From: Rubrobacter indicoceani
Lineage (GTDB): Bacteria > Actinomycetota > Rubrobacteria > Rubrobacterales > Rubrobacteraceae
Direction: 5' to 3'
Length of the DNA: 64,000 bases
NCBI RefSeq assembly: GCF_003568865.1
Contig: NZ_CP031115.1
Span: 1,426,001-1,490,000, forward strand
The position numbers were made by a program, and so were the translations under genes. This document shows, one piece after another, positions 11,053 through 34,265 of this stretch (position 1 is the first letter of the stretch; each line of letters opens with the position of its first letter). A model generated the notes under the pieces. It searched no databases, had not been told where the DNA came from, and saw nothing but the letters and a program-made list of their open reading frames with translations.

Positions 11053-11997
11053 ATGGTCTTTCTTTTGACGGAGGGACCGTACCGCGATATCGGCGCGGGG
11101 CTTGTCCGGCTCTCGGGCCTCGAAGCCCCTCGCCGCGCCCCGTCGAACCTCCTGACCGTCGAGGACGTTCTTCTCGAACTCCTGAAAAACGCCCGCGACG
11201 CCGGAGCAACCGGGATCTACGTCGCCTCCTCCCTCCACGCCCGGCGCTACCGGACGCTCCTTGTCCTCGACAACGGCGAGGGCATCCCGGCCCAGCACAC
11301 CGAAACCATCTTCGAACCCGGAACGACCAGCCGCCACCTCTCCCGGACCTCCGGCTTCGCCCTGTACCACATAAAGAACCTGGCCCACCAGGCCACCGTC
11401 ACAAACCCCGCAAACCCGACCGCGATCAAAGCCACCCTCGATACCCGCCGGATCCCGGAAAGAACCCTCCAGTCGGCCTCCCGTACCTCGAAGTCAAACC
11501 TCCTCGCCACCGCTACCGACTTCGCCCGCCAGAACCAGAACCTCCGCCTTTACCTCGGAACCCAGTCCAATATCGTCTCAACCCTTCTAAAAAACAACAT
11601 AATACCTCAAAACCTCGCTTCCGGAGCCGATGGTCGGGGTGCTTCGGAGGTGTTCGAGTATGTTCGGGGGCTTGGCTTTGAGATATCGGCGAGGACCTTG
11701 AAGCGGGTTCTCTCGGGTGGCGGGGCGTTCGGTGAGCCGGGCCGTTCCCCGGCCCTCGACTCTGATACCCTGAAAGGCTACAGGCCGCCCCGGAAGGGTC
11801 GTAAGAAAGGCGAGGCCCCGGCACCGGTCCGGCGGGTCCTGCTGGGGGCCGGGGACAGAGCCGGAATAGAAGCCATAATCCGCGAAGCCGCAGCAGCAAA
11901 CTACCTCTCGGTCTCAGACGTGCGGTTTGAATACCGGGAGGGCGGCATCGCTATCACGGCAGATATCGCAGAGCCCGAAGAAGAGTACGATGAATAG
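11053..11997 (+). CDS. GHKL-fold (Bergerat) ATPase of unknown function
   Basis: A 314-residue protein with the ATP-binding fold shared by MutL, Hsp90 and histidine kinases. The N box is LLELLKNARDAGATGI, the G1 box is VLDNGEGIP, then GTTSRH and GFALYHIKNLA. There is no kinase H box or response partner, and no MutL endonuclease motif. The C-terminal half (from residue ~190) is unlike anything I recognise and includes a proline- and lysine-rich linker. It sits between rny and miaB, close upstream of miaB, suggesting a link to RNA or DNA metabolism, but the function is unknown. Strand composition flips mid-gene, at an ATAATAC heptamer at 11599. The start is uncertain: ATG 11053 has no ribosome site, and TTG 11065 is an alternative. 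Confidence 0.75.
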   Translation: MVFLLTEGPYRDIGAGLVRLSGLEAPRRAPSNLLTVEDVLLELLKNARDAGATGIYVASSLHARRYRTLLVLDNGEGIPAQHTETIFEPGTTSRHLSRTSGFALYHIKNLAHQATVTNPANPTAIKATLDTRRIPERTLQSASRTSKSNLLATATDFARQNQNLRLYLGTQSNIVSTLLKNNIIPQNLASGADGRGASEVFEYVRGLGFEISARTLKRVLSGGGAFGEPGRSPALDSDTLKGYRPPRKGRKKGEAPAPVRRVLLGAGDRAGIEAIIREAAAANYLSVSDVRFEYREGGIAITADIAEPEEEYDE

Positions 11998-12005
11998 AGG
12001 ATACA

Positions 12006-13460
12006 ATGAATAATACACACAGTATAAACAACACGAGCTTGAAAAAAGGTGCAAGACCGGGCCGGTCTTTTCCGGTCTTCCCTGCGGCGACCGGTGGTGG
12101 GGCGGCTGGGGAGGTAGTCTCCGGCGGTCCGGCCTCTGCGGTCAGGCTTGAAGGGGCCGGGAAGACCGCCTGCATCCGGACGTTCGGGTGTCAGATGAAC
12201 GTGCATGACTCGGACAGGATGCGTCGCATGGTCCTTGATGCCGGGTATGCCGAGGTCCAGGCCTACGAAGACGCCGACATCGTTGTTCTCAACACCTGCT
12301 ACGTCCGCGAAAACGCCGTAGACCGGGTCCGGGGACACCTCGGGGAGATAAACCGCCTCAAAAAAGAAGGCCGCGTCAAGAAAGTCGCCCTCACGGGCTG
12401 CGTCGGCGCCGCTGATGAAGCAGGGGAACTCCAGAAACAATTCAACGTGGACCTTGTATTGGGCACTCATAATACGTATGAGCTTGCGGAGTTCGTGGGG
12501 TTGCCGACTATGGCCGAGACCTACACGCCCGAGTTGCCGGGGACAGAGGGGGAGCATTCCGCCTTTGTCACTATAATGACCGGGTGCAACTACAAGTGCA
12601 GCTACTGTATCGTGCCAACGGTCCGGGGCAGGATGGTTTGCCGTCCGTTTGAGAACGTGGTCTCCGAGGTAGAGCGGCTGGTTGCCGGCGGGACAAAGTA
12701 CATAACCCTGCTCGGGCAGACCGTCGATGCGTGGCGGGGGGATGGCTTGAGGTTTTGTGATCTCCTCCTGCGGGTCTCTGAGGTTGCTCCGAGGGTCTCG
12801 TTCACGACAAGCCACCCGTCCAACATGGAGGATCGGACCCTGCGGCTTATAGGTGAGAGCGACACCATCGTCAAGAGGCTTCACCTGCCCGTACAGTCCG
12901 GGTCCGACAGGATGCTCGGGATCATGCACCGGGGCTACCGGTCCGAGCGTTACCGGCGGAAGATAGAGGTCTTTCGGGGGGCGGTCCCGGGCGGGACGCT
13001 CAGCACGGACCTGATAATCGGGCATCCCGGCGAGACCGAAGAGGACCATGAGGCGACGCTCTCGCTTGTTGAGGACTGCGCCTTTGACTCCGCGTACGTC
13101 TTCAAGTACTCGCCCCGGCGCGGAACTGAAGGGGCCCGGATGTTCGAGGCCGGCGAGGCGATACCCGAGAACGTTGTTCAGCGGCGCTTCTCCGAGGTGC
13201 TCGGGTCCATAGAGAAAAACGCCCTCGAGCGAAACCGGAGCAAGGTCGGCGGGGAGGAGGAGGTCTTTATCAGGCACGGGGTTTCGGATTCCGGACGGGT
13301 CATCGGCGAGACCTGGAGTGGACACGCCGTTTATCTCTCCTGTGATGCCGTCGCACCTCCGGCCCCGGGCGACTACGTCCGGGCCACCATCACCTCAGCC
13401 GGGCCGCACGCGCTCTACGCCAGCCAGAGAACCCTCCAGACAACAGAACCGGACCGTTGA
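12006..13460 (+). CDS. miaB: tRNA-2-methylthio-N6-dimethylallyladenosine synthase MiaB
   Basis: Radical-SAM methylthiotransferase acting on i6A37 of tRNA (484 aa). The UPF0004 domain carries the auxiliary-cluster cysteines (TFGCQMN at Cys62, NTCYVREN, TGCVG). The radical-SAM motif CNYKCSYC follows at about residues 194-201, and a C-terminal TRAM domain is present. About 50 residues precede the conserved core. They are low-complexity, so the true start could be further in, although ATG 12006 has a modest AGAGG site. miaB, miaA and hflX form one overlapping unit. Two ATAATAC heptamers fall at its very start (12010) and at 12469. Confidence 0.95.
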   Translation: MNNTHSINNTSLKKGARPGRSFPVFPAATGGGAAGEVVSGGPASAVRLEGAGKTACIRTFGCQMNVHDSDRMRRMVLDAGYAEVQAYEDADIVVLNTCYVRENAVDRVRGHLGEINRLKKEGRVKKVALTGCVGAADEAGELQKQFNVDLVLGTHNTYELAEFVGLPTMAETYTPELPGTEGEHSAFVTIMTGCNYKCSYCIVPTVRGRMVCRPFENVVSEVERLVAGGTKYITLLGQTVDAWRGDGLRFCDLLLRVSEVAPRVSFTTSHPSNMEDRTLRLIGESDTIVKRLHLPVQSGSDRMLGIMHRGYRSERYRRKIEVFRGAVPGGTLSTDLIIGHPGETEEDHEATLSLVEDCAFDSAYVFKYSPRRGTEGARMFEAGEAIPENVVQRRFSEVLGSIEKNALERNRSKVGGEEEVFIRHGVSDSGRVIGETWSGHAVYLSCDAVAPPAPGDYVRATITSAGPHALYASQRTLQTTEPDR

Positions 13461-14392
13461 GCGAGGACCCGAGGTGCCTCGTCGTCTACGGTCCGACCGC
13501 AAGCGGCAAGAGCGACCTGACAGATGCCCTTCACGACGCCGCCGGTGACTGCGAAAAAGAACCCGGCAGAAAGACCACCATCCTCTTTGACTCCATGCAG
13601 GTCTACCGGGAGATACCGAACCTCACAAACCAGCACCGCCGAAGGCCTGCGGAACTCTCCGGCATCGTCTCCGTACTGGACGAGTGGTCGGTTGCAAGGC
13701 ACAGAGCCGCCGCCGATTCCCTTTTCGCCGAGCACGAACACGAAAAAGCACAGATAATACTCGAGGCCGGCACGGGCCTGTACCTGAACGCCTTTCTTTT
13801 CGGGTTCCCGCTTGCGGAGCGGGTGCCGGAGTATATCCGCCGAGAGGCCGAGAGGCAGGTCTTTGAAGCGCAGAGACCGGCGGCCTTGAGCGGAGGCCGT
13901 CCCACCAATGCCCGGCGGGCGGTGAGGACGGAAGAGTTGAAGCTGGCCGGTCTGGAAGACGGCAGGGGCTCGGTCTGGGAGGGTGGGATGCGTGTCAGGG
14001 CTTCGGTCTTGTACCTGCGTCCCGATGACCGGAGTGCTCTTGACCGGAACATTGCCTCCCGCACGGGATCCATAGTCCAGAACGGCCTCGAAGAGGCGGC
14101 CCTGCTCTCGGGCTACCGGGAAGAAGCCGTCGGTAAATCAGTACTGGATGCCATCGGGGTGAGGGAGATGATCTCCGTCTTCGGGGGTGAGATCCCGGAA
14201 CACGAGGCCGAGAAAAGGATATCCGCCCGGACCCGGAGGCTTGCGCGAAGGCAGATAACCTGGTTCGATAAACTTACCAGAGCCCTCAAGGACAGCCCGA
14301 ACCTCCACTCCCTCTCGGTTGTTCATGACCCCGTAAACATAAAGCATAGTATTTCTAGGCTTGATGATATAATCCGTTGGTGGACGGAATAA
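13457..14392 (+). CDS. miaA: tRNA dimethylallyltransferase MiaA
   Basis: Adds the dimethylallyl group to A37 of tRNA, making the substrate of MiaB. Visible are the P-loop GPTASGKS, DSMQVYREIPNLTNQ (substrate-binding Asp and Tyr), and AGTGLYLNAFLFG. At 311 residues it is of normal length but divergent: the usual HLID segment reads SGIVSVLDEW, and the C-terminal zone is shortened. The start TTG overlaps the miaB stop as TTGA, the coupling also used by rluB. The ending overlaps hflX by 16 bp. Identity is firm; reduced conservation is notable. Confidence 0.92.
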   Translation: MSEDPRCLVVYGPTASGKSDLTDALHDAAGDCEKEPGRKTTILFDSMQVYREIPNLTNQHRRRPAELSGIVSVLDEWSVARHRAAADSLFAEHEHEKAQIILEAGTGLYLNAFLFGFPLAERVPEYIRREAERQVFEAQRPAALSGGRPTNARRAVRTEELKLAGLEDGRGSVWEGGMRVRASVLYLRPDDRSALDRNIASRTGSIVQNGLEEAALLSGYREEAVGKSVLDAIGVREMISVFGGEIPEHEAEKRISARTRRLARRQITWFDKLTRALKDSPNLHSLSVVHDPVNIKHSISRLDDIIRWWTE

Positions 14393-15909
14393 CGGGAAAG
14401 CGGGAAGACGGGGCTCTACCGGCTCTGGACGCTGGTTTACGGCGGGTGATACTGGTTGGTGCGGGTGAGGAGCGTTACACCGCCGAGCTTGGCCGTCTGG
14501 CGACTACGCTCGGGCTCGAGGTCGTGGGCGTGGTCGAGCAGAACCGCCGGGACAACACGGGCTACATCGGCCGGGGCAAGAGGCTCGAGCTCGCGGAGGA
14601 GATCCGGCGTGTCGAGGCCGGGATGGTGGTGACGGACGACGAGCTTACCGCTTCGCAGTCAAGGGTGCTCGAGGCAGACTGCGAAGCCCCAGTTATAGAC
14701 CGTACCGAACTCATAATACGAATCTTTCACGAACACGCCCGGGACGCGCCGAGCAAGCTGCAGGTAGAGCTTGCGGAACTCTCATACCTTCTACCGAGGA
14801 TCAGGGGTATGTGGCGTCACCTCGAGAGGCTTGGCGGCGGTTCGGCCGGTTCGGCCGGCTCTTCCGGGAGCAGCGCCGCCGGGGGTCGGGCCACAAGAGG
14901 ACCGGGCGAGCAGCAGCTCGAGTACGACCGGCGTCAGATCCGGACCCGCATGGAGCGTCTGAAGAAGCGCCTTGATGATGAGAGCGCGTCAAGACGGACG
15001 AGAAGAGCGAGGCTGAAGTCAAGCGAGATACCGAAGGTTGCCCTTGTCGGATATACAAACGCGGGAAAGACAACGGTCCTGAACGCCCTGAGCGGCGCCG
15101 ACCGCATCCCGAGGGACCGACTCTTCGAGACCCTTGAAACAACAACAAGAAAAGTAGAGGGCGAAGAAAGCGAGAACCCGTCAGGGAAAGCGGATCAAAG
15201 CCCCGGCCACAGCCTCAGCTACAGCCTCAGCTACAGCCTCAGCTACAGCCTCAGCTACAGCCTCAGCTACAGCCCCGGCTTCACCGTGACCGACACCGTC
15301 GGTTTTATAAGAAAGCTTCCGACCCAGCTTGTCGAGTCATTCTCCTCGACGCTAGAGGCCGCAGATGACGCCGACATACTAGTTATCTGCGCCGACGCTT
15401 CTAGCCCCGACCTCGAAGAGGAGATACAGACGGTGAAGAACACGCTGTCTCTGTCGGATCTGGCGGATGGAAACGGGAAGCTCCCCGGAAGAGACGGCCG
15501 GGGCGATGCTCTGAAACGCAGTAAAAGCAATAATACACAGGGCACGGGGGGCAGCAAGCCGGTGATCCTGCTGTTGAACAAGGGGGACCTCCTGACAGAG
15601 GATGAGATTTCGGAGCTTGGAAGGAGCTTTCCGGAGGGTCTTGTCTTGGATCACGGATCGGGGTACGGGGCATTGAAGGGCAGGATCTTTAATTGTATTT
15701 CAGAGATGCGCAACAGGATGAGGCTCCTGATACCTCACGGTGACTATTCGGAGGTTACGAGGCTCTACGGTCTTGCAACGATACACGAGCGGGTAGAGTC
15801 CGAGGCAGGGGTGATTCTTGACGTGAGCCTTCCGGAGGAGGTAACGAAAGAGTACGAGCGGTACCTTTTCGCTTACGACGGGGAGCCACCGGAGAACAAC
15901 TCCCGGTGA
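14377..15909 (+). CDS. hflX: GTPase HflX with expanded low-complexity insertions
   Basis: Ribosome-associated GTPase (510 aa, longer than the usual ~420-440). The N-terminal HflX domain (TLGLEVVGVVEQNR, YIGRGK, VLEADCEAPVIDRTELIIRIF) and G domain are present, with G1 GYTNAGKT, G3 DTVGFIRKLP and G4 NKGD. Three insertions stand out. A Ser/Gly/Ala run splits the glycine-rich LGGG...TRGPGE loop. Five perfect SLSY repeats (residues ~279-298) lie between switch I and G3. A ~25-residue polar segment precedes G4. All catalytic motifs survive. TTG 14377 overlaps miaA; GTG 14380 is an alternative. Confidence 0.93.
   Translation: MVDGITGKREDGALPALDAGLRRVILVGAGEERYTAELGRLATTLGLEVVGVVEQNRRDNTGYIGRGKRLELAEEIRRVEAGMVVTDDELTASQSRVLEADCEAPVIDRTELIIRIFHEHARDAPSKLQVELAELSYLLPRIRGMWRHLERLGGGSAGSAGSSGSSAAGGRATRGPGEQQLEYDRRQIRTRMERLKKRLDDESASRRTRRARLKSSEIPKVALVGYTNAGKTTVLNALSGADRIPRDRLFETLETTTRKVEGEESENPSGKADQSPGHSLSYSLSYSLSYSLSYSLSYSPGFTVTDTVGFIRKLPTQLVESFSSTLEAADDADILVICADASSPDLEEEIQTVKNTLSLSDLADGNGKLPGRDGRGDALKRSKSNNTQGTGGSKPVILLLNKGDLLTEDEISELGRSFPEGLVLDHGSGYGALKGRIFNCISEMRNRMRLLIPHGDYSEVTRLYGLATIHERVESEAGVILDVSLPEEVTKEYERYLFAYDGEPPENNSR
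15211..15270 (+). repeat. 12-bp minisatellite inside hflX (5 perfect copies)
   Basis: The unit AGCCTCAGCTAC is repeated five times without a mismatch and encodes Ser-Leu-Ser-Tyr each time. Because the unit is a multiple of 3, copy-number change keeps the frame. It lies between switch I and the G3 motif of the GTPase domain. Confidence 0.97.
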
Positions 15910-16712
15910 GAAACACCGGGCCAGACAGCCCCGGGATAACGCGGCTCTACCCGAGCTTCAAGGTACTGGAAGGAAAAGAAGCCGTGTATCAGGACCTTGA
16001 GTTCCCGGACCCGGAAGAACCCGGGGACAGGGATCTGCCCTTCGTGTATATAAACATGGTTTCCTCCATAGACGGCAAGGTAGCCGTTTCCGGGAAGTCC
16101 GGCGCCATAGGGAGCGACGTAGACCGAAGCACCATGAGGGAGCTGAGGTCCCTCTCAGATGCGGTGATGGTCGGCTCAGGGACGCTCAGGGCCGAAAAGG
16201 TGTCGCTGACCTCCGAGGGACGGCGGAGGCCGGAGCCACTTGCGATTGTAGTCTCATCCTCACTAGACGTTCCACTGAAAGAAAATCTGAAGGACGCAGA
16301 GAAAGACCGGACGGTCGTTATAACGACCGAGCGCTCCCTTAAAAACTCGAAGCCCGAGGACCTCGATGAGATCTCCTCCCGGGCACGGGTCCTTGCCGCG
16401 CCGGAGAAAAAATCTTCCGGGGGAACGGTAGACCTCAGAGAAGCACTCGGGCTTCTCGGCTCCGGGTACGGGGTCCGTCGCCTACTTGCGGAGGGCGGCC
16501 CGGGCCTCAACTACGAACTTATCTCAAGCGGCGTAGCCCGGGAACTGTTCCTGACCCTCTCACCGCAGATCCTTGCCGGAGAACCGGAGAGATCCCTCAA
16601 CATAGTATCCGGCAGACTGCTCGAAAGAGACGCAAGGGCCCGGCTTATATCACTTCACCAAGCAGACGGAGAACTCTTCCTGAGATACTCGCTAGCAGAC
16701 AGCTCAGGCTGA
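15906..16712 (+). CDS. RibD C-terminal-domain (pyrimidine reductase family) protein
   Basis: A 268-residue stand-alone reductase domain related to the C-terminal half of RibD and to dihydrofolate reductase. Recognisable are VYINMVSSIDGKVAVSGKSG (substrate loop), SDAVMVGSGTLRAE, and RRLLAEGGPGLNYELI, all typical of the NADPH-dependent pyrimidine reductase family. There is no deaminase domain, so it is not bifunctional RibD, and the exact substrate is uncertain. The start GTG overlaps the hflX stop as GTGA, so it ends the miaB-miaA-hflX operon. It is the last + strand gene before the direction change. Confidence 0.85.
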   Translation: MRNTGPDSPGITRLYPSFKVLEGKEAVYQDLEFPDPEEPGDRDLPFVYINMVSSIDGKVAVSGKSGAIGSDVDRSTMRELRSLSDAVMVGSGTLRAEKVSLTSEGRRRPEPLAIVVSSSLDVPLKENLKDAEKDRTVVITTERSLKNSKPEDLDEISSRARVLAAPEKKSSGGTVDLREALGLLGSGYGVRRLLAEGGPGLNYELISSGVARELFLTLSPQILAGEPERSLNIVSGRLLERDARARLISLHQADGELFLRYSLADSSG

Positions 16713-16745
16713 GCTGGTCAGCCTGACCCGGCCTTCTCTGTGATT

Positions 16746-16777
16746 CGGTTTCCGATAAGTACGATTCTCGGAAACCG
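16746..16777. other. dif-like inverted repeat beside the Xer gene (candidate recombination site)
   Basis: CGGTTTCCGA (16746-16755) and TCGGAAACCG (16768-16777) are perfect inverted arms. Read as a Xer site, 11-bp arms GTTTCCGATAA (16748-16758) and TTCTCGGAAAC (16765-16775) match at 10 of 11 positions around a 6-bp centre GTACGA. It lies in the 71-bp gap where all genes converge, 7 bp beyond the stop of a tyrosine recombinase. No T-tract follows on either strand, which argues against a plain terminator. The right arm lacks the canonical TTATGT of XerD sites. Confidence 0.45.
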
Positions 16778-16783
16778 GACGGT

Positions 16784-17713
16784 TCAGTTTATCGGCAGCG
16801 TATTGTATCTGTGGGCTTTGCTGGCCAGTTCCTCCGCGCGTCTTATGTACCTCATAGTGGTCTTCGGGTCGCGGTGTCCTAGAAACTGCTGGATCACGAT
16901 CAGGGGCGCCTCGTTTACGGCCATGTTGGTTCCGACGGTGTGTCTTATGGAGTGCGGGGAGATTTGCTTGGTTATTCCGGCTCGCTCGGCGTATTTCTTT
17001 ATTATGTACCGGACCGATCTCGTAGTCAGGGGCCTGCAGTTGCCTTCCCGGGACTGAAAGAGGGGTCGCTTCATATCAGACTGTGAGGCGAAGCTCATGC
17101 CGCACCTGAGAACGAAGTTCTGAACAAGGGTCCAGAGTTCGGGTGAAACGGAGACGTTTCGGACCCTCTCGCCCTTACCGACCACCCTGAGGCTCAGGGT
17201 CTCTGCACCGTCGCTGTCCGCACCCATATCCCTGAAGTCCCCGACGACGACCCCGACTACCTCGGCCTCCCGAAGCCCGCAGGAGGCCATCAGGGCGATC
17301 ATCACATAGTCCCGGTAGTTCGACGTTCTCGCGGCAGAGAGCATCCTTGATAGCTCATCATCGGTCAGTACGTTGTAGGAGGAATCCTGCTCGACCTTCG
17401 GACTCCTTGCAAAAAACCGGATCGCCTCCGGGTTTACCCGCGTGAAACCGCCCATAAAGGTAAAGGTCAGGAAACGCCTCAGGGCCGCAAGCTTTTTTGC
17501 AACCGTAGCTCGGGAATACAGACCCATTATCCGCTCCCTGTAGATGCTGATGTCCTCGGCCGTCAGGGATCCCAGATCCTCCTTCCCGAGACGTTCCTCC
17601 ATAAAACACACGAACATCTTTAGTTCGGTATTATACGTTTTCTTTGTCTGAGGGCTGGTGAGGGTTCTGAGGTAGGTCTCTATAAGGCTTTCGGTTGTGG
17701 GTCGGGTGGTCAC
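16784..17713 (-). CDS. Tyrosine recombinase, Xer family
   Basis: A 309-residue site-specific recombinase. An N-terminal SAM-like core-binding domain (LIETYLRTLTSPQTKKTYNTEL) precedes the catalytic domain with all active residues: Arg148 (CGLREAE), Lys180, His254 and Arg257 (HSIRHT), His280 (FLGHRD) and Tyr289 (TMRYI). Length and architecture fit XerC/XerD or a single-protein Xer rather than a phage integrase, and there is no tRNA or prophage nearby. The GTG start has a weak ribosome site. It ends the rsiG-FHA-ftsR-apt gene row. The dif-like repeat directly downstream suggests its target; this is inference. Confidence 0.88.
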   Translation of the reverse strand: MTTRPTTESLIETYLRTLTSPQTKKTYNTELKMFVCFMEERLGKEDLGSLTAEDISIYRERIMGLYSRATVAKKLAALRRFLTFTFMGGFTRVNPEAIRFFARSPKVEQDSSYNVLTDDELSRMLSAARTSNYRDYVMIALMASCGLREAEVVGVVVGDFRDMGADSDGAETLSLRVVGKGERVRNVSVSPELWTLVQNFVLRCGMSFASQSDMKRPLFQSREGNCRPLTTRSVRYIIKKYAERAGITKQISPHSIRHTVGTNMAVNEAPLIVIQQFLGHRDPKTTMRYIRRAEELASKAHRYNTLPIN

Positions 17714-17756
17714 CGGGTCGTTTGTGCTGCGGGTGTCGGGGAGGTGCGGGATGATC

Positions 17757-18320
17757 TCAGTCCTCGGGGTTTTCGTAGGTTATGAGGCTTACTACTTCGT
17801 GGGGGGTTATAGCCTGTCTGCCGCCGAGGTAGAGGAGTTCTATCATAAAGGCAGCCCCGGCCACGACCCCGCCGGCGTTCTCGACAAGCTGACACATCGC
17901 CCGGGCGGTGCCGCCGGTGGCCAGGAGGTCATCTGCGACGAGAACCCGGGTTCCGGGCGGGATCGAGTCCACGTGGGCTTCAAGGGAATCGGTACCGTAT
18001 TCCAGTTTGTATTCGGCGGAGATGGTGCGCCTCGGCAGCTTGTTTGGCTTTCGGGCGAGGATCAGCCCCTTCCGGGTGCGGTATGCAAGGGCGGTCCCGA
18101 AGACAAAGCCGCGCGCTTCGGCGCAGACTATGCGGTCGTAGTCGAGGTGTTCGACGGCGTTGGCGAGGGCGTCTATTGCGTCGTGCAGGGCAGGGCCGTC
18201 GTCGAGAAGCGGGGTTATATCCTTGAAGGAGACACCGGGTTTCGGGAAGTCAGCCACGGTCATTATGTGTCGCTCGATGTCTCTGAAGCTTGCGTCAGGG
18301 GCAGATCCGGCATCCGGCAC
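17757..18320 (-). CDS. apt: Adenine phosphoribosyltransferase
   Basis: Purine salvage enzyme making AMP from adenine and PRPP (187 aa). The PRPP-binding motif is VLVADDLLATGGTARA, preceded by the family segments DFPKPGVSFKDITPLL and ICAEARGFVFG (read here as VCAEARGFVFG). The start is GTG and the gene follows ftsR with a 6-bp gap, so it is in the same transcript. Confidence 0.96.
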   Translation of the reverse strand: MPDAGSAPDASFRDIERHIMTVADFPKPGVSFKDITPLLDDGPALHDAIDALANAVEHLDYDRIVCAEARGFVFGTALAYRTRKGLILARKPNKLPRRTISAEYKLEYGTDSLEAHVDSIPPGTRVLVADDLLATGGTARAMCQLVENAGGVVAGAAFMIELLYLGGRQAITPHEVVSLITYENPED

Positions 18321-18326
18321 GGGCCG

Positions 18327-19115: not shown

Positions 19116-19135
19116 ATCAGATCACTCCTGAATCT

Positions 19136-19184
19136 GGCATCCCATCTTCGGCTTCCTTTCTCGAGAGGCCGAAGATGGGATGCC
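19136..19184. other. Perfect 17-bp-stem hairpin in the ftsR leader
   Basis: Arms at 19136-19152 and 19168-19184 are perfectly complementary over 17 bp around a 15-nt loop that itself contains CTCGAG. Reading the - strand, it lies after the FHA gene and before ftsR, and no U-run follows it in that direction. It could stabilise the ftsR mRNA, act as a barrier, or separate FHA from ftsR expression. Confidence 0.8.
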
Positions 19185-19197
19185 TTTGTGTATTATG

Positions 19198-19227
19198 ATT
19201 AGCGTACTTGTTTCCGGTGTGGTTCAA
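19198..19227 (-). promoter_or_regulatory. Candidate promoter of ftsR-apt-xer
   Basis: On the - strand TTGAAC (19222-19227) and GCTAAT (19198-19203) are 18 bp apart, upstream of the hairpin and ftsR. An ATAATAC heptamer (GTATTAT at 19190-19196 on +) overlaps the predicted start region. Match to consensus is moderate. Confidence 0.4.
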
Positions 19228-21466: not shown

Positions 21467-22119
21467 GATCCCCCACCCCCGTCATCGTCAGGTTCGTAGA
21501 TCCTCTTCATCATAAGGCCCGAAGCCTCCCCGTAGGCCGCCCGGCCTCTCGTAGTATTATCTGGATATATCGGCTCTCCGATGCGGGCCGAGAATTTCTT
21601 GCCCCGGAGCCTCTCAAGAGGAGACGGTATCTCCCCGATAAAGACCGGAAGGACCGGCGCCCCGGACCTTGCAGCGAGCATTATAGCCCCGTTTTTGGCC
21701 CCCGAGTCCTCACCGGCTGACTGGCTTCGGTGGCGCTCGGCTTTTCTTCTGCGCGTCCCTTCGGGGAAGATGCCGAGCGCCCAGCCGTCTTCCAGGTAGC
21801 GCAGGGCCGCCCGCAGAGCGCCCCGCCCCCCGCCCTGGCGGTCAACCGGAAACGCTCCGAGAAGGCCGAAGAGGCCCACGAGCGGTTTCAGGAAAAGTTC
21901 TTTCTTCGCCATCCACTGAACCCTTCTCGGCACCGCCATGCACACAAAGACCGGATCGAAGAAGCGCCAGTGATTCGAGGCAACGACAACGGGACCGCTC
22001 CTCGGGACGCGGTCTTCACCCCGAACTTCGAAACCAAGCAAGACGCGCCCGGCAAGGATGACGGCGGCCCGGACAAGGGCGTACCGGCGCGACATGCCGC
22101 TCTCGTCAAGCCTCGGCAT
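21463..22119 (-). CDS. 1-acyl-glycerol-3-phosphate acyltransferase (PlsC family)
   Basis: Phospholipid-synthesis acyltransferase (218 aa). The catalytic HX4D motif is in SNHWRFFDPVF, the substrate motif in FPEGTRRR, with an N-terminal hydrophobic segment (YALVRAAVILAGRVLLGFEV). The gene is inserted between cmk and der, and cmk-plsC-der is a common actinobacterial and clostridial order. The stop-start overlap with der is 4 bp. One heptamer (GTATTAT, 21554-21560) lies in its 3' third. Confidence 0.92.
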   Translation of the reverse strand: MPRLDESGMSRRYALVRAAVILAGRVLLGFEVRGEDRVPRSGPVVVASNHWRFFDPVFVCMAVPRRVQWMAKKELFLKPLVGLFGLLGAFPVDRQGGGRGALRAALRYLEDGWALGIFPEGTRRRKAERHRSQSAGEDSGAKNGAIMLAARSGAPVLPVFIGEIPSPLERLRGKKFSARIGEPIYPDNTTRGRAAYGEASGLMMKRIYEPDDDGGGGS

Positions 22120-22851: not shown

Positions 22852-24204
22852 CTACCCCCCCAGAAAACGGAGCCGCTCGAAAAAGTCCGGCAGCGTCTTT
22901 GTAACGCAGGACGGGTTCCTGATCCGAACGCCCCCGACAAGAAGCCCCACCAGCGAAAAAGCCATCGCAACCCGGTGATCGTCATAAGTCTCTATCGCCG
23001 CCGGAACGATCTCCTTAACGGACTTTACGGGTATTATGAGTAGACCATCGCGAGATTCGCGGGTCTGGACGCCGAGGCGTCCGAGCTCTGTGGCGACGGC
23101 GGTTATCCGGTCGGTCTCCTGGTGGCGGGTGTGTTCTATGTTGGTTATGGAGGTCGGGGAGGATGCAAAGGGCGCGATGGCGGCGAGGGTGAGGAAGGTG
23201 TCGGAGATCTCGTTCATATCCACCTCGACGCCGGAGAGCTTTTCGTTCTGTGGTCCCCGGACTTCGGTGTAACCCGCTCCGTATTCGACCTCGCAGCCCA
23301 TAAGGCGAAGAACCTCGACGAAACGGAGGTCGCCCTGGGAGGAGGACCGGTCGAGCCCCTCGACCCTGACCCTTCCTCCGGTGAGGGCCGCGGCGGCAAA
23401 GAAGTACGACGCCCCGGAGGCGTCCGGTTCTACGGGGAACTCGGTAGCGGTGTAGGTCCGGGGGCTGATGCGGTAGACGCCGGAGCCGTCCTCGGAGACC
23501 GCAACCCCGAAGGCGGACATCACCTCGCGGGTGATATCTATGTAGGGCTTCGAGACAAGGTCTCCCGCAACGCGCAGCGTAACCGGGTTTCTGGCGCAGG
23601 GCGAGCCGAGCATGACCCCGCTAAGAAACTGGCTGCTCCTGCCGCTCCGGACGCGGGCCTCTCCGCCCTCGAGCCCGCCGCCGCGGACCACGAGCGGGAA
23701 GCGCCCCTCCCGGTCGGCGTAGTCTATCTTTGCCCCCAGAGCGCGCAGGGCCTCGACAAGGTCCGAGATCGGACGTTCGCGCATCCTCGGCACCCCGTCA
23801 ACCCGATAGGGTCCGGCCCCGAGCGCGAGCGCGGAGGGCAGAAAGCGGGCGGCGGTCCCGGCGTTCCCGACAAAGACCTCCACGTCCCTGTTCGGTATCT
23901 CCCCGCCCCGCCCGACTATCCGCACGTCGCCGTCCTCGACAGAGACCTCGAAGCCGAGGTCCGAGAGAGCCTTCATAAGCCAGAAGGAATCGTCCGACAG
24001 AAGCGGGTTTCCGAGCCCGGACTCACCATTCGCCAGAGCGCAGCAGATCATAGCCCTGTTCGTTACAGATTTCGACCCCGGAACCCGCAAGACCGCATCC
24101 ACCGGACAGACGAGCGGCTCTATAAGAACCTCAGCCGGGAAATCTCCCCTCACCTCCCGAACCCCGAAATCCCGCCCCGGGACGCCCCGGACTCTAGCGG
24201 TCAT
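22852..24204 (-). CDS. aroA: 3-phosphoshikimate 1-carboxyvinyltransferase (EPSP synthase)
   Basis: Sixth step of the shikimate pathway (450 aa). Signatures: VPGSKSVTNRAMI (shikimate-3-phosphate site), GNAGTAARFLPS (the glyphosate-contact loop), and TYDDHRVAMAFSL near the C-terminus. The start ATG 24204 overlaps the 3' end of rluB by 11 bp. The other shikimate genes in the window (aroQ, aroB, aroK, aroC) are 16 kb away, so aroA is in a separate operon. Two ATAATAC heptamers flank its two ends (23031, and 24364 in rluB). Confidence 0.97.
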   Translation of the reverse strand: MTARVRGVPGRDFGVREVRGDFPAEVLIEPLVCPVDAVLRVPGSKSVTNRAMICCALANGESGLGNPLLSDDSFWLMKALSDLGFEVSVEDGDVRIVGRGGEIPNRDVEVFVGNAGTAARFLPSALALGAGPYRVDGVPRMRERPISDLVEALRALGAKIDYADREGRFPLVVRGGGLEGGEARVRSGRSSQFLSGVMLGSPCARNPVTLRVAGDLVSKPYIDITREVMSAFGVAVSEDGSGVYRISPRTYTATEFPVEPDASGASYFFAAAALTGGRVRVEGLDRSSSQGDLRFVEVLRLMGCEVEYGAGYTEVRGPQNEKLSGVEVDMNEISDTFLTLAAIAPFASSPTSITNIEHTRHQETDRITAVATELGRLGVQTRESRDGLLIIPVKSVKEIVPAAIETYDDHRVAMAFSLVGLLVGGVRIRNPSCVTKTLPDFFERLRFLGG

Positions 24205-24928
24205 CCCCTCTGCCCCCTCCGGAACCCCGCCCGTAAAACCCGCCGACCTCCTCGCCCGAAAGCTCCCTGATCGCCCCCGGGGCAAGCCCCGCAAGGGATA
24301 CCCCCCCGACCCGGACCCGCGACAGAGAGACGAGCCGGAGGCCGACGGCGGCACAGGCCCTTCGTATTATGCGGTTTTTTCCTTCGTGGATGGTCATCGA
24401 GATCTCAAGGTTCCTTCCCTTTCTGCGGGGTCTGGTCGTCTGAGGCGGGAGCATCGGGCCGTCATCGAGGTCGGGTCCCCGGGCGAGGGCTTCGAGCGCG
24501 CCGTCGGGGAACTGCGGGTCTATGAGCAGTCGGTATTCCTTCTCGACCTCGGAGGAGGGATGGGCGACGAGGTTGGCGAAGTCGCCGTCGTTGGTCAGGA
24601 GGATCAGACCCGTAGTCCCGGCGTCGAGCCTGCCGACGGGGATGAGGCCGGGGACGCCTTTCGGCATGAGGTCCGAAACGGTCGGACGCCCGAAGTCGTC
24701 CTTCATGGTCGTCAGGTATCCCTCGGGCTTGTTCAGCGCGAGGTAGACCTGTGAGCGCTGCGGTCTCACCGGGCGTCCGTCAAGAAAGACCCGGTCGCCC
24801 GGTGAAACCTTCGCCCCGAGATCGGCGACCGACCCGTTTACCGCGACGCGACCGGAGATTATAAGCGCCTCGGCCTTTCTTCTCGACGGCGCGGCCCCCG
24901 CCCGGGCAAGGTACGCCTGTAGCCTCAA
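24194..24928 (-). CDS. rluB: 23S rRNA pseudouridine synthase, RluB type
   Basis: Makes pseudouridine in helix 89-90 of 23S rRNA (244 aa). An N-terminal S4 domain (LRLQAYLARAGAAPSRRKAEALI) precedes the catalytic domain with GRLDAGTTGLILLTNDGD, whose Asp is the nucleophile, and GKNRIIRRACAAVG. TTG 24928 is chosen: it overlaps the scpB stop as TTGA, is preceded by GGGGGA, and gives the family N-terminus. The frame stays open far upstream only because it runs antisense-like through scpB and its repeats. Confidence 0.92.
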   Translation of the reverse strand: MRLQAYLARAGAAPSRRKAEALIISGRVAVNGSVADLGAKVSPGDRVFLDGRPVRPQRSQVYLALNKPEGYLTTMKDDFGRPTVSDLMPKGVPGLIPVGRLDAGTTGLILLTNDGDFANLVAHPSSEVEKEYRLLIDPQFPDGALEALARGPDLDDGPMLPPQTTRPRRKGRNLEISMTIHEGKNRIIRRACAAVGLRLVSLSRVRVGGVSLAGLAPGAIRELSGEEVGGFYGRGSGGGRGDDR

Positions 24929-28569: not shown

Positions 28570-29096
28570 TTACCCTCGCAGAGCCCGGCCTCGACGAGAA
28601 GCCGCATCACATCCCTGTCCCCGCCCGTCCCGACGCGGAGGCCGGTACGGTCCTCGCCAGAAAGAAACCCCTGCGGGTTCTCGCCTCCGAGAACCACCTC
28701 GCGGGTAGCGTGCCCGCCCCCCGCCAGCAACCGCCCGACCCTCTCCGCCAGAGCGGCATCCGACTCTGATGCGGAGTCCTCCCGCTTCACCGCGACCTCC
28801 ATCACCGTCTCCCGGGCCGCCGAGAAAGCCGCCAGGCTCCGCAGCACCTCCTCCACTTCCCCCTCCGCCAGCACCGAGATCCGCACCGAAACCCGCACCG
28901 CACCCGACGGTCTCCCCGCTTCGACCTCCACCCCAACGTCGGGGTGCCGAAGCTCCGGCCCGAAAAGGTCCGACCGGGCCTCTGAGAGAAGGCTTCGAGC
29001 CGACGTTTCGGGACGTGGTGTCAGCGTAGCGCGGATAAGGGCGGCTCCGGCTGCGGAGAGGTAGATAAAACCGGCCGGGGCGTCCGGCAGCGGCAC
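28566..29096 (-). CDS. Conserved-looking hypothetical protein in the ald-DUF3866 operon
   Basis: A 176-residue protein of unknown function, Ala-, Glu- and Arg-rich, with no membrane segment, signal peptide or cysteine cluster in its core. I see no recognisable motif. It overlaps the DUF3866 gene by 4 bp and follows pyrG after ~50 bp, so it is translated with its neighbours. Codon usage is like theirs (GC at third positions), supporting a real gene. Confidence 0.6.
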   Translation of the reverse strand: MPLPDAPAGFIYLSAAGAALIRATLTPRPETSARSLLSEARSDLFGPELRHPDVGVEVEAGRPSGAVRVSVRISVLAEGEVEEVLRSLAAFSAARETVMEVAVKREDSASESDAALAERVGRLLAGGGHATREVVLGGENPQGFLSGEDRTGLRVGTGGDRDVMRLLVEAGLCEGK

Positions 29097-29146
29097 GACC
29101 GTCCCGGGGGCCCGGAGGCCCGGAGCCCCGGCGCGCTCCGGGGCCG

Positions 29147-30808
29147 TCAGGGTCGGGTTTCCCCGGCGGCCGGCCTCACGGTCGCTGCGGGGTCCGCGCA
29201 GGCCGCGACAAAGCCCCGGAAAAGCGGGTGAGACTCAAGCGGACGGCTCTTGAACTCGGGATGGAACTGGCTGGCGATAAAGAACGGGTGGTCTCTTATC
29301 TCCGCTATCTCGACGAGCCTCCCGTCCGGCGACGTGCCGCTGAAGTCCATTCCGGCCCCGGTAAGAACCTCGCGGTAGGCGTTGTTCACCTCGTAGCGGT
29401 GGCGGTGGCGTTCCTGAACCTCGTCCTCACCGTAGACCTTGCGGGCCAGGGTTCCCGGCTCGAGCCTGCACGGGTAAGCCCCGAGGCGCATAGTCCCGCC
29501 CATATCCACCCCGATTTGATCCGCCATGATCGCGATAACCGGGTGCGGCGTCTCCTCGTCGAACTCCGTGGAGTTCGCAAGCTCGAGCCCGGCGACGTTC
29601 CTTGCGTACTCGATGACCGCTATCTGCATCCCGAGACAAAGCCCCAGATAAGGCGTCTTTGTCTCACGGGCGTAGCGCGCCGCCTCGAGCTTGCCCTCTA
29701 TCCCTCGCGCCCCGAAGCCGTGCAGGACCAGAACCCCGTCGGCGGCTTCGAGGTACTCGCGGGCGGCGGCCTGATCCTTCAGCAGCTCCGCGTCAACCCA
29801 GTCAAGCTCCACGTTGACCCCGTTCGCCCCGCCAGCGTGCTCCAGCGACTCGACGACCGAGAGGTACGCGTCCTTGAGCTTGATGTACTTCCCGATAACG
29901 GCGACCCTGACCGTCTTCTCGGCGGACTTCAGCCGCCGGACAAGGTCGCGCCACTCAAGCAGGTCGGCCTCCGGAACGGGGAGGCCGAGCTTGTCGAGAA
30001 CGTGCGAGTCGAGCCCGGCTTCGTGCAGGTGCAGCGGGATGTCGTAGAGGGTGTCCACGTCTTCGGCCGGGATAACGGAGTCAAGCTCCACGTCGCCGAA
30101 AAGGGAGATCTTCCTGCGGATATCCTCGCCCATCGGCCGGTCAACCCGGCACACCAGAACGTCGGCGGAGATGCCTATCTCCCTGAGCCTCTGGGCGGAG
30201 TGCTGGGTCGGTTTGGTCTTGAGTTCCCCGGCGGCCTCGATGTAGGGAACGTAGCTTACGTGCATGTAGAGGACGTTTCTGCGCCCGACGTCGTTTCTGA
30301 ACTGCCGGATGGCCTCGAGAAACGGAAGGCTCTCTATGTCCCCGACGGTGCCGCCGATCTCGGTGATAACGATGTCCTTGTCCTTGCCGAGCCGGCCGAT
30401 CCTGTTCTTTATCTCGTTTGTTATATGCGGGATGACCTGCACGGTGGCCCCGAGGTAATCCCCCCGCCGCTCGCGCTGGATGACCTCCCAGTAGACGCTG
30501 CCGCTTGTAACGTTGGAGAGCCTGCCGAGGTTCTCACCGAGAAACCGCTCGTAGTGTCCGAGGTCGAGGTCGGTCTCGGCCCCGTCCTCGGTTACAAAGA
30601 CCTCGCCGTGCTGGTAGGGGTTCATCGTGCCGGGGTCCACGTTTATGTACGGGTCGAACTTCTGCAGGACGACCCGGTAGCCCCGCGCCTTCAGGAGCAT
30701 GGCCAGCGAGGCCGCGCTCGTCCCCTTGCCGATGGACGAGACTACCCCGCCCGTAACGAAGATGTACTTTGTACCGTTCTCAGAAACCGAATTATTCAAA
30801 TTACTCAC
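29147..30808 (-). CDS. pyrG: CTP synthase
   Basis: Makes CTP from UTP with glutamine (553 aa, normal length). The synthetase domain opens [23 protein letters not shown], with [13 protein letters not shown]. The glutaminase domain has the catalytic Cys in [17 protein letters not shown] and the His-Glu pair in QFHPEFKS. It overlaps the upstream transferase gene by 8 bp. The recN-steA-steB-pyrG neighbourhood is the mycobacterial one. Confidence 0.98.
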
Positions 30809-31595
30809 CGCGCACCCGCCCCCATAGATCCAGCCACCTTAAAACTCCAACCTCCTGTATTAAACGGGATATCGAGGAAAACTCCGCAACCAGCGTCAAC
30901 GAGACTACCAGAAGCCCCGCAACTATCCACACCGCACCCGGCCCGACCGATAGAACGAGAAGCCCGACAGCCGAACCGCAGGCCGCCGCTCCGGCATCCC
31001 CGAGCATGATACGCCCTCTGACGTCGAAATAAAACAGGGCGCATATTCCCCCGACAAGCCCCGATAAGGCAGACGCAGCCCACCCCGGAGCGGCGAACAG
31101 CACGACGAGCGCCGGCAGCAGGGTGAACTTTATCGCCCTTCCGGGCCGTACGTCGAAGAGGTTCCCGAGGTTCGCCCAGCCCGCGAGCAGAAAAGCCCCG
31201 ACAAGCGCCGAAACCCCGACCCCGAAGACCCACACCCCGACAAGGAGCGCGCCCCCGCCGAAGGCGAGTATCTTTACCAGCCCGGTGGTCAGCCGCCTGG
31301 CCAGAAGCGCCCCGACGTGCCCCCGAAAACCCCGCGCTCCGCCGTCTCCCCAGACGTCGTCCACAAACCCGACCACCACCGCAAGCAGCAGATACGATGA
31401 AAACACAAAGAAATCCCCGCCGGTGCCGGAGAAAAGCGTCAGGAGTATTATCGGCAGCAGCACAGCGCCCGCTGCGGTCGGGATCTGTTTGCCGGTGAAG
31501 TTGGGTTGCGTCGGTAGGAACTTTCCGGCGGGGGCGAGGGCCAGAAGGGTTACGGCTGCGCCGATCAGGAAGAGAAGCGGCGCGTTCACGGCCAC
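30801..31595 (-). CDS. MraY/WecA-like phosphosugar-prenyl-phosphate transferase
   Basis: A polytopic membrane protein (264 aa, about eight hydrophobic segments) of the polyprenyl-phosphate N-acetylhexosamine-1-phosphate transferase superfamily. The Asp-rich motif [11 protein letters not shown], the [12 protein letters not shown] segment and [12 protein letters not shown] correspond to the three conserved loops. It is shorter than MraY (~320-360 aa) and lacks the HHH-containing fifth loop in recognisable form, so the substrate is open. It overlaps the GT2 gene by 10 bp and pyrG by 8 bp. A role in making a lipid-linked envelope glycan is inferred. Confidence 0.82.
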
Positions 31596-32275
31596 CGGAG
31601 GCGGTCGCCGCGCAGGGCGCGGAGCACGTCGCAGCCCTGTCGGGCGCGGTGGGAGAAGCCCCGGAGGGATTTACCGGTGGCGCGGTGCGAGAGTTCGACC
31701 GGTATCTCCGCCGGGGTGATCCCGGCTTCAAGGAGGTCGAGGGTCATCCCGACCTCGGCCCCGAAGCCGGGCGCAACGCCGGGCAGGCCGTAGAGCGGTC
31801 CGGCGAAAAGCGCGCGCTGACCGGAGAGCGGTTCTACGGGTGAGAACCCGGTGCGGGCCGCGATGCTTTTCCGGGCGAGGCGTTTCACCGTCCCGAACCC
31901 GCCACCCCCGGCTACTGAGGCCGGAAAGGCTGCGATGGCGACCGGCGACTCGGTGGTGAGGGCTTCGAGAAGCGCGGAGAGTCCGGCGGCGGTCGCTCCG
32001 AGGTCTGCGTCGCAGAGGAGTATCGCGTCGGGGACGCGGCGTCGGGCGCGGGTCAGGCCGGAGAGCATCGCCCCGCCCTTGCCGTTCTCCCCGGTTGTTC
32101 GCACCACCTCGGCCCCGAGGGACCCTGCGACCTCCCCGGTCGCATCCACGCTGGCGTCGTCCACGACAACGAAGTGCGCAAGACCGGGGAGGTTCGCAAG
32201 AGAGGCGAGGGTTTCGCCGATGCGCCCGGCCTCGTTTCGGGCGGGGACGACCGCTACCGTTCTTATCGGGTTCAC
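31586..32275 (-). CDS. Family 2 glycosyltransferase
   Basis: A 229-residue GT-A transferase, without membrane helices. VAVVPARNEAGRIGETLASLANL is the nucleotide-binding start, VDDASVDATGEVA follows, and the metal motif is LLCDADLGAT. The C-terminal half (LSGQRALFAGPLYGLPG, GFGAEVGMTLDLLEAG) resembles glucosyl-3-phosphoglycerate synthase/dolichol-phosphate-sugar synthases. Coupled to the phosphosugar transferase gene, so both probably act in the same lipid-linked glycan pathway. Confidence 0.85.
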   Translation of the reverse strand: MNPIRTVAVVPARNEAGRIGETLASLANLPGLAHFVVVDDASVDATGEVAGSLGAEVVRTTGENGKGGAMLSGLTRARRRVPDAILLCDADLGATAAGLSALLEALTTESPVAIAAFPASVAGGGGFGTVKRLARKSIAARTGFSPVEPLSGQRALFAGPLYGLPGVAPGFGAEVGMTLDLLEAGITPAEIPVELSHRATGKSLRGFSHRARQGCDVLRALRGDRLRWP

Positions 32276-32279
32276 CGGG

Positions 32280-33095
32280 TCATTCCGGGGTCGGGAACGG
32301 ATCGGAGGCGGTATCTTTGGTCCCGTAGGAGCCGTCCTGATCCGAGTTGGCGAGGGTGATCACGGCGGCGAGCCCGGCGGGGGTGTCGGCGTTGTCTACG
32401 GAGGGGAGGCCCGCGCTCTGGAAGAGCGCTATCTCCGAGCGGCCGGGGGAGGTCGGTTCGGCCCCGACTACGCGAATGCCGTAGTCGTTCCAGAGGTCAA
32501 AGACTTCGGCCTCGGCCTCGTTGAGCGCGTCGAGCGTCCCGGAGGGGGCGTTGGCCGGGATCTCCCCGCCCCCCACGAAGATAACGATCTGCGGTGGCAC
32601 GCTGGCGTCTCCGGGTTCGGTGGCGACGGCTTCGGCGAGGTCCAGGTAATCGCCCTGAAGCGGTGTGGTCGTCTCGGATGCGGAGGTTACCTCGCCCGGC
32701 AGGGTCGGCGAGGGGAGTTCCTCGACCGCCGTTACCTCGGCCCCGGCGAGGTCCAGCGCCTCGAGAACACCGCTCACGGTCTCACCGTCGGAGTACGGCC
32801 CGGAGACCACGGCGACCTCTAGACCGGTCAGCGTTCCGGCGTTGATAGCCTCGGACATCCCGACCATAAGCCTCTCGTTCACGACCGTCCTTTCCTGAAG
32901 CCGCTCTATCTGACGGTCCCGGACGGCAATGGCCTCCTGCTGCTCGGAGAATCGCTCCTGCACCTCGGTGATCTGACCCTCGAGGCTGTCCGTTACCACG
33001 CCCTGATCCGCAACCGCGACCCCGAGGAGTATCCCGATGGCGAGCGCGAGAAAGACGCTTATAAGCGAGATCAGATGATAACGGAGGTCGGGCAT
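32280..33095 (-). CDS. steB: SteB/MctB-family membrane-anchored protein
   Basis: A 271-residue protein beginning MPDLRYHLISLISVFLALAIGILLGV, the signal-anchor hallmark of the MctB/SteB family, then a coiled coil (residues ~35-75) and an extracytoplasmic domain. Homologues are called copper transporter MctB in mycobacteria and cell-separation protein SteB in corynebacteria. Here the steA neighbour 9 bp upstream argues for the SteAB cytokinetic role. The C-terminus is variable. Confidence 0.82.
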   Translation of the reverse strand: MPDLRYHLISLISVFLALAIGILLGVAVADQGVVTDSLEGQITEVQERFSEQQEAIAVRDRQIERLQERTVVNERLMVGMSEAINAGTLTGLEVAVVSGPYSDGETVSGVLEALDLAGAEVTAVEELPSPTLPGEVTSASETTTPLQGDYLDLAEAVATEPGDASVPPQIVIFVGGGEIPANAPSGTLDALNEAEAEVFDLWNDYGIRVVGAEPTSPGRSEIALFQSAGLPSVDNADTPAGLAAVITLANSDQDGSYGTKDTASDPFPTPE

Positions 33096-33104
33096 CTACC
33101 GGCC

Positions 33105-34265
33105 CTAGATCCCGAGGAGCAGCCGGAGCCTGATCGCAAGTAAGTTAAAGATATCGGCCATCTGCTCGGAAGAATACACGACCGCCGATACCGCGGTCAG
33201 CCCCGCCGCTACAAGCGCAATGAGCAGGACCGGCGAAACCCTTGTCGGGTAGAGCTTTGACACCCCCTTGGCGTCCACGAGCCTCGGCCCGACTTTCAGC
33301 CGGGTCAGAAAGGTCGAAGACGCCCCGCGCCGCCCCTTGTCGAGAAACTCGACGAGCCCGACGTGCGTCCCGACGGCGACTATCAGCTCCGCCCCGCACT
33401 GCTCGGCGATGAGTATCGCGATATCCTCCGAAAGCCCCGGCGCTCGCAGGGTCGGGACGTTTTTTATCCCGGCTCTGCCGAGCGGCTCCAACCCCGGCGC
33501 GCCGCCGTTCGGGTAGGCGTGTACCAGCACGCTCCTCGCCTCCCGCATCCCGCGCTCCGAGACGGAGTCCATGTCCCCGAAGAGCAGGTCCGGTCTGCAG
33601 CCGACCTCAAGAAGCGCGTCGGCCCCGCCGTCCACGGCGATGACAAACGGCCTCTCACCCCGGATATACGGCCTGAGGGCGATGAGATCCTGCCGGTAGT
33701 CGTAGCCGCGAACCACGATAAGAACCTGCCTGCCCCGTACCCTCCGCGCTATCTCCTGCGGAACGTCGAAGGTCGAGAACAGCAGATCCCGCTCGACGTG
33801 CATGAACTCGACGGTGTTCTTTGCAAAGCTCTCGAGCGCGGCCCCGACGGCCTCCCGACTCTCCCGGAGCCGCCGCTCGGCCGTCTCCTCATCGAGATGC
33901 TCCCCCCGCGCAACAAACCGCCCGCCCCTGTACAGAGAGTCCCCCCGAAGCTCCACCTCATCACCGTCCCGAACCCCCTCAAACGCCGCCTCCCCAACCC
34001 GGTCCAGTATGTAAACCCCCGCCCGGGCCAGTATAAAAGGCCCGAGGTTCGGATAGGTCCCCGTCGCGGACCCCGCCGCGTTCACAACCGCCCGAACCCC
34101 CGAGTCGACCAGCGTCTCAGCCGTTACCCGATCAAGGTTCTCGTGATGTATTATGGGTATAGTTTCCTCGGAGAGCCGGGCGACGATGTCTTTTGTCTTG
34201 CGTCCGAGAACGGCTCGTCCGGTGAGGTTCATCCCGTTGGGCGGGCTGTTTTCCCCGTTTCTCAC
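33105..34265 (-). CDS. steA: SteA-like cytokinetic protein
   Basis: A 386-residue protein with a large cytoplasmic domain resembling thiamin pyrophosphokinase folds (VIAVDGGADALLEVGCRPDLLFGDMDSVSE) and a C-terminal membrane helix (VSPVLLIALVAAGLTAVSAVVY). This matches SteA, which with SteB supports septum splitting in corynebacteria. The gene overlaps recN by 4 bp, in the order recN-steA-steB as in M. tuberculosis. A heptamer (34148-34154) sits in its 5' region, coding for part of PIIHHE. Confidence 0.85.
   Translation of the reverse strand: MRNGENSPPNGMNLTGRAVLGRKTKDIVARLSEETIPIIHHENLDRVTAETLVDSGVRAVVNAAGSATGTYPNLGPFILARAGVYILDRVGEAAFEGVRDGDEVELRGDSLYRGGRFVARGEHLDEETAERRLRESREAVGAALESFAKNTVEFMHVERDLLFSTFDVPQEIARRVRGRQVLIVVRGYDYRQDLIALRPYIRGERPFVIAVDGGADALLEVGCRPDLLFGDMDSVSERGMREARSVLVHAYPNGGAPGLEPLGRAGIKNVPTLRAPGLSEDIAILIAEQCGAELIVAVGTHVGLVEFLDKGRRGASSTFLTRLKVGPRLVDAKGVSKLYPTRVSPVLLIALVAAGLTAVSAVVYSSEQMADIFNLLAIRLRLLLGI

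Follow-up and report, generated by a model that had tools for sequence, protein, structure and literature searches.

A terminus-facing heptamer, ATAATAC, with a local strand-composition footprint in Rubrobacter: a candidate replication-termination element

We analyzed a 64,000-nucleotide stretch of the Rubrobacter indicoceani chromosome (assembly GCF_003568865.1, contig NZ_CP031115.1, positions 1,426,001 to 1,490,000; hereafter the window, numbered from its first letter). It belongs to a genome of 3.08 Mb and three replicons. The window contains a dif-like site, the gene of a Xer-type tyrosine recombinase, ftsK and 15 copies of the heptamer ATAATAC where 0.77 would be expected (Table 1). At most of these copies the + strand switches from A+C-rich to G+T-rich, and on either side of the heptamer it is the strand leading away in the 5'-3' direction that is G/T-rich. 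This switch was measured as the flip, the mean of the A+C fraction on the left and the G+T fraction on the right, whose neutral value is 0.5, over a standard width of 200 bp per side. About 420 kb of the chromosome, together with the two plasmids, was read stretch by stretch, while the remaining ~85% of the chromosome was searched for patterns and families only. The relatives used for comparison are 18 Rubrobacteraceae loci around the orthologous recombinase, mostly on metagenome-assembled contigs.

The dif-like site occurs as a single copy among the loci read and is conserved in relatives. An inverted repeat with a 6-bp centre, a skew switch and a tyrosine recombinase are found together at 16747-16776, as expected of a Xer/dif system; this applies to the dif-like site and not to the heptamer. 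The best NCBIfam match of the recombinase is XerC, with a score below the cut-offs of XerC, XerD, XerA and XerS. The site and its lone Xer-type recombinase may form a single-recombinase dimer-resolution system of Rubrobacteraceae. The genes ftsK, recA and recX (window 4347-9310) lie at most 13 kb from dif, and the location of recA at the terminus is an unusual placement.

Table 1. Heptamers and associated features of the window. Flip values are for 200 bp per side. KOPS: FtsK-orienting polar sequences.
Feature	Position	Strand	Location	Flip	Remarks
ATAATAC	9183-9189	+	in recX	0.515 (none)	toward dif; kept in 7 relatives, codes RYNT
ATAATAC	11599-11605	+	inside GHKL (HATPase) gene	0.645 (strong)	kept in 9 relatives covering the locus
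ATAATAC	12010-12016	+	start of miaB-like gene	0.53 (weak)	
ATAATAC	12469-12475	+	in miaB-like gene	0.56	kept in 9 relatives
ATAATAC	13754-13760	+	in miaA-like gene	0.58	9 orthologues without motif 0.506
ATAATAC	14713-14719	+	in hflX-like gene	0.498 (none)	motif in no orthologue
ATAATAC	15530-15536	+	in hflX-like gene	0.55	innermost + site, left of dif
dif-like site GGTTTCCGATAAGTACGATTCTCGGAAACC	16747-16776	+	at polarity switch	0.60	12-bp arms, 1 mismatch, 6-bp centre
Xer-type tyrosine recombinase	16784-17713	-	adjoins dif		309 aa; PF00589 and PF02899
ATAATAC	17628-17634	-	in recombinase gene	0.63 (strong)	kept in 16 relatives
ATAATAC	19190-19196	-	between FHA and MerR-like genes	0.56	
ATAATAC	21554-21560	-	in acyltransferase gene	0.56	orthologues with motif 0.559, without 0.500
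ATAATAC	23031-23037	-	in EPSP synthase gene	0.615	orthologues with motif (2) 0.591, without (9) 0.496
ATAATAC	24364-24370	-	in pseudouridine synthase gene	0.63 (strong)	
ATAATAC	31445-31451	-		0.61	
ATAATAC	34148-34154	-	in SteA-like gene	0.61	
ATAATAC	63949-63955	-	close to window end		toward dif; outside the 200-bp flip set
ftsK	4347-6803	+	10 kb from dif		canonical gamma (KOPS-reading) domain by sequence; context only

The orientation of the heptamer is strict. The whole genome holds 37 copies, 32 of them chromosomal; to the left of window position ~16.75 kb all 17 chromosomal copies lie on the + strand, and to the right all 15 lie on the - strand. The GC skew switches at the same point. 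All chromosomal copies except one (31/32) are found within 325 kb of the dif-like site, the motif being nearly absent farther out. In R. radiotolerans RSPS-4, the 21 chromosomal copies are all polar about that strain's own dif, and 98 of 102 copies in the relatives are polar.

On plasmids, the heptamer faces itself. Each of seven RepA plasmids (two of this genome, three of RSPS-4, one of R. tropicus and one of R. marinus) carries a convergent ATAATAC pair or small cluster at the 3' end of rep or at most ~3.5 kb after it. The ATAATAC coordinates of the RSPS-4 plasmids match NZ_CP007516 and NZ_CP007517, and the RepA-type rep gene corresponds to PF10134 in the two plasmids tested. These plasmids, of 51-264 kb, have two to four copies each, almost all at a single spot; only one further copy was found across the seven (C2:25132), and it shows no flip. 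The inner pairs are spaced by 109-338 bp, and between them pyrimidines make up 60-84% of the rep strand (rep 3' ends in loci L009, L010, L065, L067, L069 and L098-L102), in a tract that could possibly be an origin, a terminus or a Rho-type terminator. The outer flanks flip on average, unevenly. No dif-like site was detected between the ATAATAC pairs of the genome's own plasmids, the best candidate (18/30 matches) being at background level.

The initial annotation had proposed, from hand counts of 60 bp per side, that composition flips at many ATAATAC sites with the outward strand G/T-rich, as around a bidirectional origin. Both the flip and its sign were recovered. For 14 sites of the window the mean flip was 0.579, whereas the remaining heptamers that can be composed from its letters averaged 0.509 (p<=5e-5). 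Permuted-heptamer controls gave 0.510 against 0.563 at 29 sites of the sampled chromosome, and 0.529 against 0.572 at 97 sites of the relatives. When random positions were used instead, 30 chromosomal sites reached 0.561 vs 0.500 (standard deviation 0.030; Mann-Whitney p=1.4e-12), and the maximum of 100,000 bootstrap means was 0.525. The averaging of skew around the motif that had been suggested as a check gave a motif-centred profile rather than a flat one, the control heptamers showing no flip. The profile rises at the motif, forms a plateau to ~200-250 bp on each side and has almost returned to baseline at ~300 bp; it is roughly symmetric, and both GC skew and TA skew contribute to it.

At single sites, the edges of the flip differ widely. 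The hand counts (A+C left/G+T right) were exact at 11599 (42/36) and 17628 (37/43), while recounting gave 38/37 instead of 39/37 at 31445 and 35/37 instead of 38/37 at 34148. The copies at 13754, 15530, 19190, 23031 and 24364, listed as similar over longer distances, indeed flip (0.55-0.63), the two described as exceptions (9183 and 14713) do not, and the example given of a flip within a gene, the GHKL ATPase, has the 0.645 of Table 1. The recX copy at 9183 may owe its conservation to the RYNT codons rather than to a role as a site. In the interval that separates the FHA gene from the MerR-like gene, the heptamer at 19190 adjoins a long, nearly perfect inverted repeat (GGCATCCCATCTTCGGC...GCCGAAGATGGGATGCC, window 19138-19184), probably a terminator.

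The flip requires the exact word. When the 6,223 heptamers with enough copies were ranked in this genome ATAATAC came first (z=11.0, the next unrelated motif being at ~4), and it was also first in relatives (z=19.5), its nearest competitors overlapping it. When the steepest transitions from A+C to G+T were sought without bias or reference to any motif, ATAATAC was among the top three heptamers in this genome and in the lead in relatives, where it is present in 33 of the top 60 switches vs 1.5 expected. One-mismatch variants remained near 0.5, without signal. At fourfold-degenerate sites the outward strand is depleted in C (0.30, down from 0.42) and enriched in G (0.47, up from 0.37), with a certain increase of T; the third-codon check proposed along with the averaging is therefore passed, and the bias does not stem from protein sequence. 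The first and second codon positions are shifted as well.

Several trivial sources of asymmetry were discarded. Transcription of the host gene was rejected because the flip is seen in both gene orientations, and an artefact of gene ends or convergent genes because 33 convergent junctions average 0.512. Flanks able to form hairpins or quasi-palindromes showed no clear excess (self score 10.2 vs 9.6 for crossed flanks). Ordinary leading/lagging asymmetry is too weak and lacks a T-over-A component.

The flip is strongest near dif. It declines with distance from this site, and three copies located more than 350 kb away have none, which connects it with the terminus rather than with the letters of ATAATAC by themselves. 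The dif loci themselves flip: those with no ATAATAC within 450 bp gave 0.564 (n=11), on a background of 0.499 (standard deviation 0.031), and this local flip is opposite in sense to the surrounding large-scale skew.

Orthologous sequences with and without the heptamer were then compared. Among 16 orthologous groups, the mean flip was 0.564 with the motif in the corresponding position and 0.515 without it, 14 of the 16 going in that direction (Wilcoxon p=1e-4); these contrasts partly share descent and are not fully independent. One of the two exceptional groups has sites that face away from dif. Across relatives, the flip depends on the motif. Orthologues that lack the ATAATAC of the recombinase gene keep a raised flip (0.568, n=4), which fits with a slowly decaying scar, though dif is close by.

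The sequences thus demonstrate the polarity, clustering and exactness of ATAATAC, its plasmid pairs, its footprint and the dependence of this footprint on the motif, and the footprint of dif. Chromosomal copies directed at the terminus, together with plasmid copies directed at one another in a single place, have the anatomy of a fork trap. We propose, with a probability of roughly 0.42, that ATAATAC forms the core of a polar, Ter-like element at which replication terminates in the Rubrobacteraceae. The element itself is well supported; how it would produce the flip is an inference. The parallel with Ter is close: polar sites face each other on both sides of the terminus with dif between them, as dif is enclosed by the innermost ter sites in Escherichia coli (PMC10331603), and convergent sites accompany the rep or origin region in 7/7 plasmids, as the terRL/terRR pair of plasmid R1 lies beside the origin, between the minimal origin and the point where the leading strand begins to be synthesised (PMC10331603). 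Of the miniature origins in the initial annotation, the flip, the origin-like sign and the link with the motif hold. This stops short of literal origins: the 100% polarity on the chromosome, the clustering at the terminus and dif and the plasmid pairs are a termination anatomy. DNA synthesis or strand exposure beginning at ATAATAC nevertheless remains a live reading of the source of the footprint.

As to mechanism, a protein would read ATAATAC and arrest or mark replication forks, which would then fuse at ATAATAC and at dif. As the flip is also present at dif away from ATAATAC, the economical view is that both are places of fork fusion. At each fusion, forks could overshoot or restart over ~200-250 bp, with outward synthesis or strand exposure on both sides, and over evolutionary time the outward-running strand would turn G/T-rich, leaving an origin-like footprint within the terminus. 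Fork overshoot and over-replication at convergence have been published for E. coli (PMC10025158), and the G-over-C sign of the flip is the leading-strand sign in this genome. A simple roadblock with stalled forks or RNA polymerases was rejected, as it should give a flip of reversed sign, provided that strands turn G/T-rich when exposed. More tentatively than the element itself, we suggest a sequence-directed DNA transaction of a kind so far undescribed, in which terminus-facing ATAATAC and dif would direct outward synthesis or strand exposure over ~200 bp at each cell cycle, the resulting scar being legible in the genome and marking the true end of bacterial replication. We found no published strand-composition scar of this kind in the literature searched.

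Several observations weigh against the fork trap. The genome contains neither Tus (PF05472) nor RTP (replication terminator protein, PF02334) in searches that detected the E. coli and Bacillus subtilis controls, and the ATAATAC-binding protein is still a putative component. Three E. coli Ter sites, the only ones tested, show no such flip. Sites located 50-350 kb out flip weakly, though the inner sites should trap most forks, and a few sites (9183, 14713) have no flip. Outside the terminus, ATAATAC in the permissive orientation seems to be avoided. The local skew reaches ~3 times the size of the replication skew in this genome, with an additional T-over-A component that the latter lacks. Lastly, fourfold divergence near the sites is not raised (0.372 vs 0.414), which argues against simple extra mutagenesis.

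Another explanation is that ATAATAC guides segregation, through FtsK (as a divergent KOPS) or some other organiser of the terminus, the flip arising secondarily when the translocase loads or when the terminus is processed at septation. The polarity indeed turns at dif, which flips too, the ftsK gene with its gamma domain is 10 kb away, and a zone of ~300 kb per side would suit the terminus region where FtsK is active. However, the gamma domain is of the canonical type, and the same regions contain G-rich octamers with a polarity of their own, for example GGGGCGGG, with 71 toward dif and 10 away (window and sampled chromosome loci L012-L027); such octamers are likelier than ATAATAC to be the Rubrobacter KOPS, and ATAATAC is thus not needed in that role. 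KOPS also have to be spread along a replicon, whereas the plasmids of up to 264 kb have almost no guide words; E. coli KOPS do not flip; and a translocase of double-stranded DNA has no obvious route to strand asymmetry. Given the canonical gamma domain, the polar octamers and these nearly guideless plasmids, a KOPS function fits less well than the fork trap, and we regard it as unlikely.

Selection may also act on composition itself, if the motif needs ~200 bp of A/C-rich strand on the way in and of G/T-rich strand on the way out. Such a composition might stop or keep out transcription arriving from either side, or make the strands easier to open. The Rho factor uses C-rich, G-poor RNA, and inward RNA at the sites would resemble it. 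The divergence that is not raised, the shift at codon positions 1 and 2, the plateau of the averaged profile and the pyrimidine-rich plasmid interiors (0.60-0.84) all go in this direction. Against it, maintaining hundreds of biased bases within housekeeping genes would be costly, single-site edges vary widely and some sites do not flip. Since divergence is not raised, distant sites still flip weakly and the tested E. coli sites are blank, selection on composition keeps some probability, although a low one.

It is distinctly improbable that ATAATAC is a Chi-like signal, at which an AddAB/AdnAB-type enzyme leaving the convergence of forks would reach the motif 3' side first, then switch to recombination or synthesis. 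The word is exact, short, asymmetric and in the right orientation, the convergent plasmid pairs flank one spot, a pair of PDDEXK nucleases is present, and in E. coli RecBCD becomes replicative through chi where forks converge (PMC10025158). Chi words are however abundant genome-wide, unlike ATAATAC, and 33 E. coli Chi sites had no flip, a blank result shared by KOPS, Ter, matS and dif of that species.

Even less probable is a true site of initiation, nicking or double-strand breakage with synthesis or repair running outward, which is close to what the initial annotation put forward. It would agree with the sign and symmetry of the flip and with the need for the exact heptamer, but leaves the polarity toward dif and the plasmid pairs unexplained, and divergence is not raised. 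A bidirectional promoter, in which the AT-rich word would serve as a -10 box both ways while the non-template strands turn G/T-rich, is very improbable: the outward symmetry and the resemblance to TATAAT are offset by the absence of flip at CATAAT, GATAAT and other -10-like words, by the need for the final C, by the unexplained polarity and by the independence of the flip from which strand codes. The promoter reading was rejected on the -10-like hexamers together with the one-mismatch heptamers. Chance or a codon artefact, suggested by the noise of single 60-bp counts, is negligible in view of the p value of ~1e-12, the de novo recovery of the motif, the orthologue contrast and the lack of flip at control heptamers and convergent gene ends.

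Among known systems, XerS/difSL and XerH resemble this locus in that the recombinase gene adjoins its dif, a likeness that concerns the neighbouring dif and not ATAATAC. Chi and its role in completion with RecBCD share with ATAATAC a short, exact and asymmetric word oriented relative to convergent forks; the heptamer differs in that it is not over-represented genome-wide. The architecture imparting sequences (AIMS), like ATAATAC, increase in abundance and strand bias toward the terminus. They are abundant degenerate octamers distributed on a gradient, unlike ~30 exact copies that are 100% polar and endowed with a strand footprint, and a heptamer of 37 copies does not fit the E. coli criteria of PMC5993296. 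KOPS and the SpoIIIE recognition sequences (SRS), read by FtsK and SpoIIIE, are oriented toward dif and switch there, as does ATAATAC, which is by contrast A/T-rich, rare, limited to the terminus and confined to one spot per plasmid instead of spread along the replicon. RTP-Ter of B. subtilis has polar terminus sites as well, Rubrobacter being without an RTP homologue.

The culturable and radiation-resistant R. radiotolerans has small plasmids, and the proposed fork trap yields clear predictions that can be tested in this organism. The exact-heptamer footprint, absent from the known systems tested, could provide a readout of termination places from sequence only. The nearest counterpart is Tus-Ter of E. 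coli and of plasmids R6K, R1 and R100, in which sites also converge on dif, dif lies between the innermost ones and plasmid pairs lie beside the origin or rep. ATAATAC departs from it by its exact 7-bp core, its more than 20-30 sites per chromosome, its local flip and the lack of a Tus homologue. A review of termination names two bacterial fork-trap systems, Tus and RTP (PMC10331603); if our reading is right, ATAATAC would be the core of a third polar terminus element, unrelated to these two and common to the chromosomes and plasmids of the whole family.

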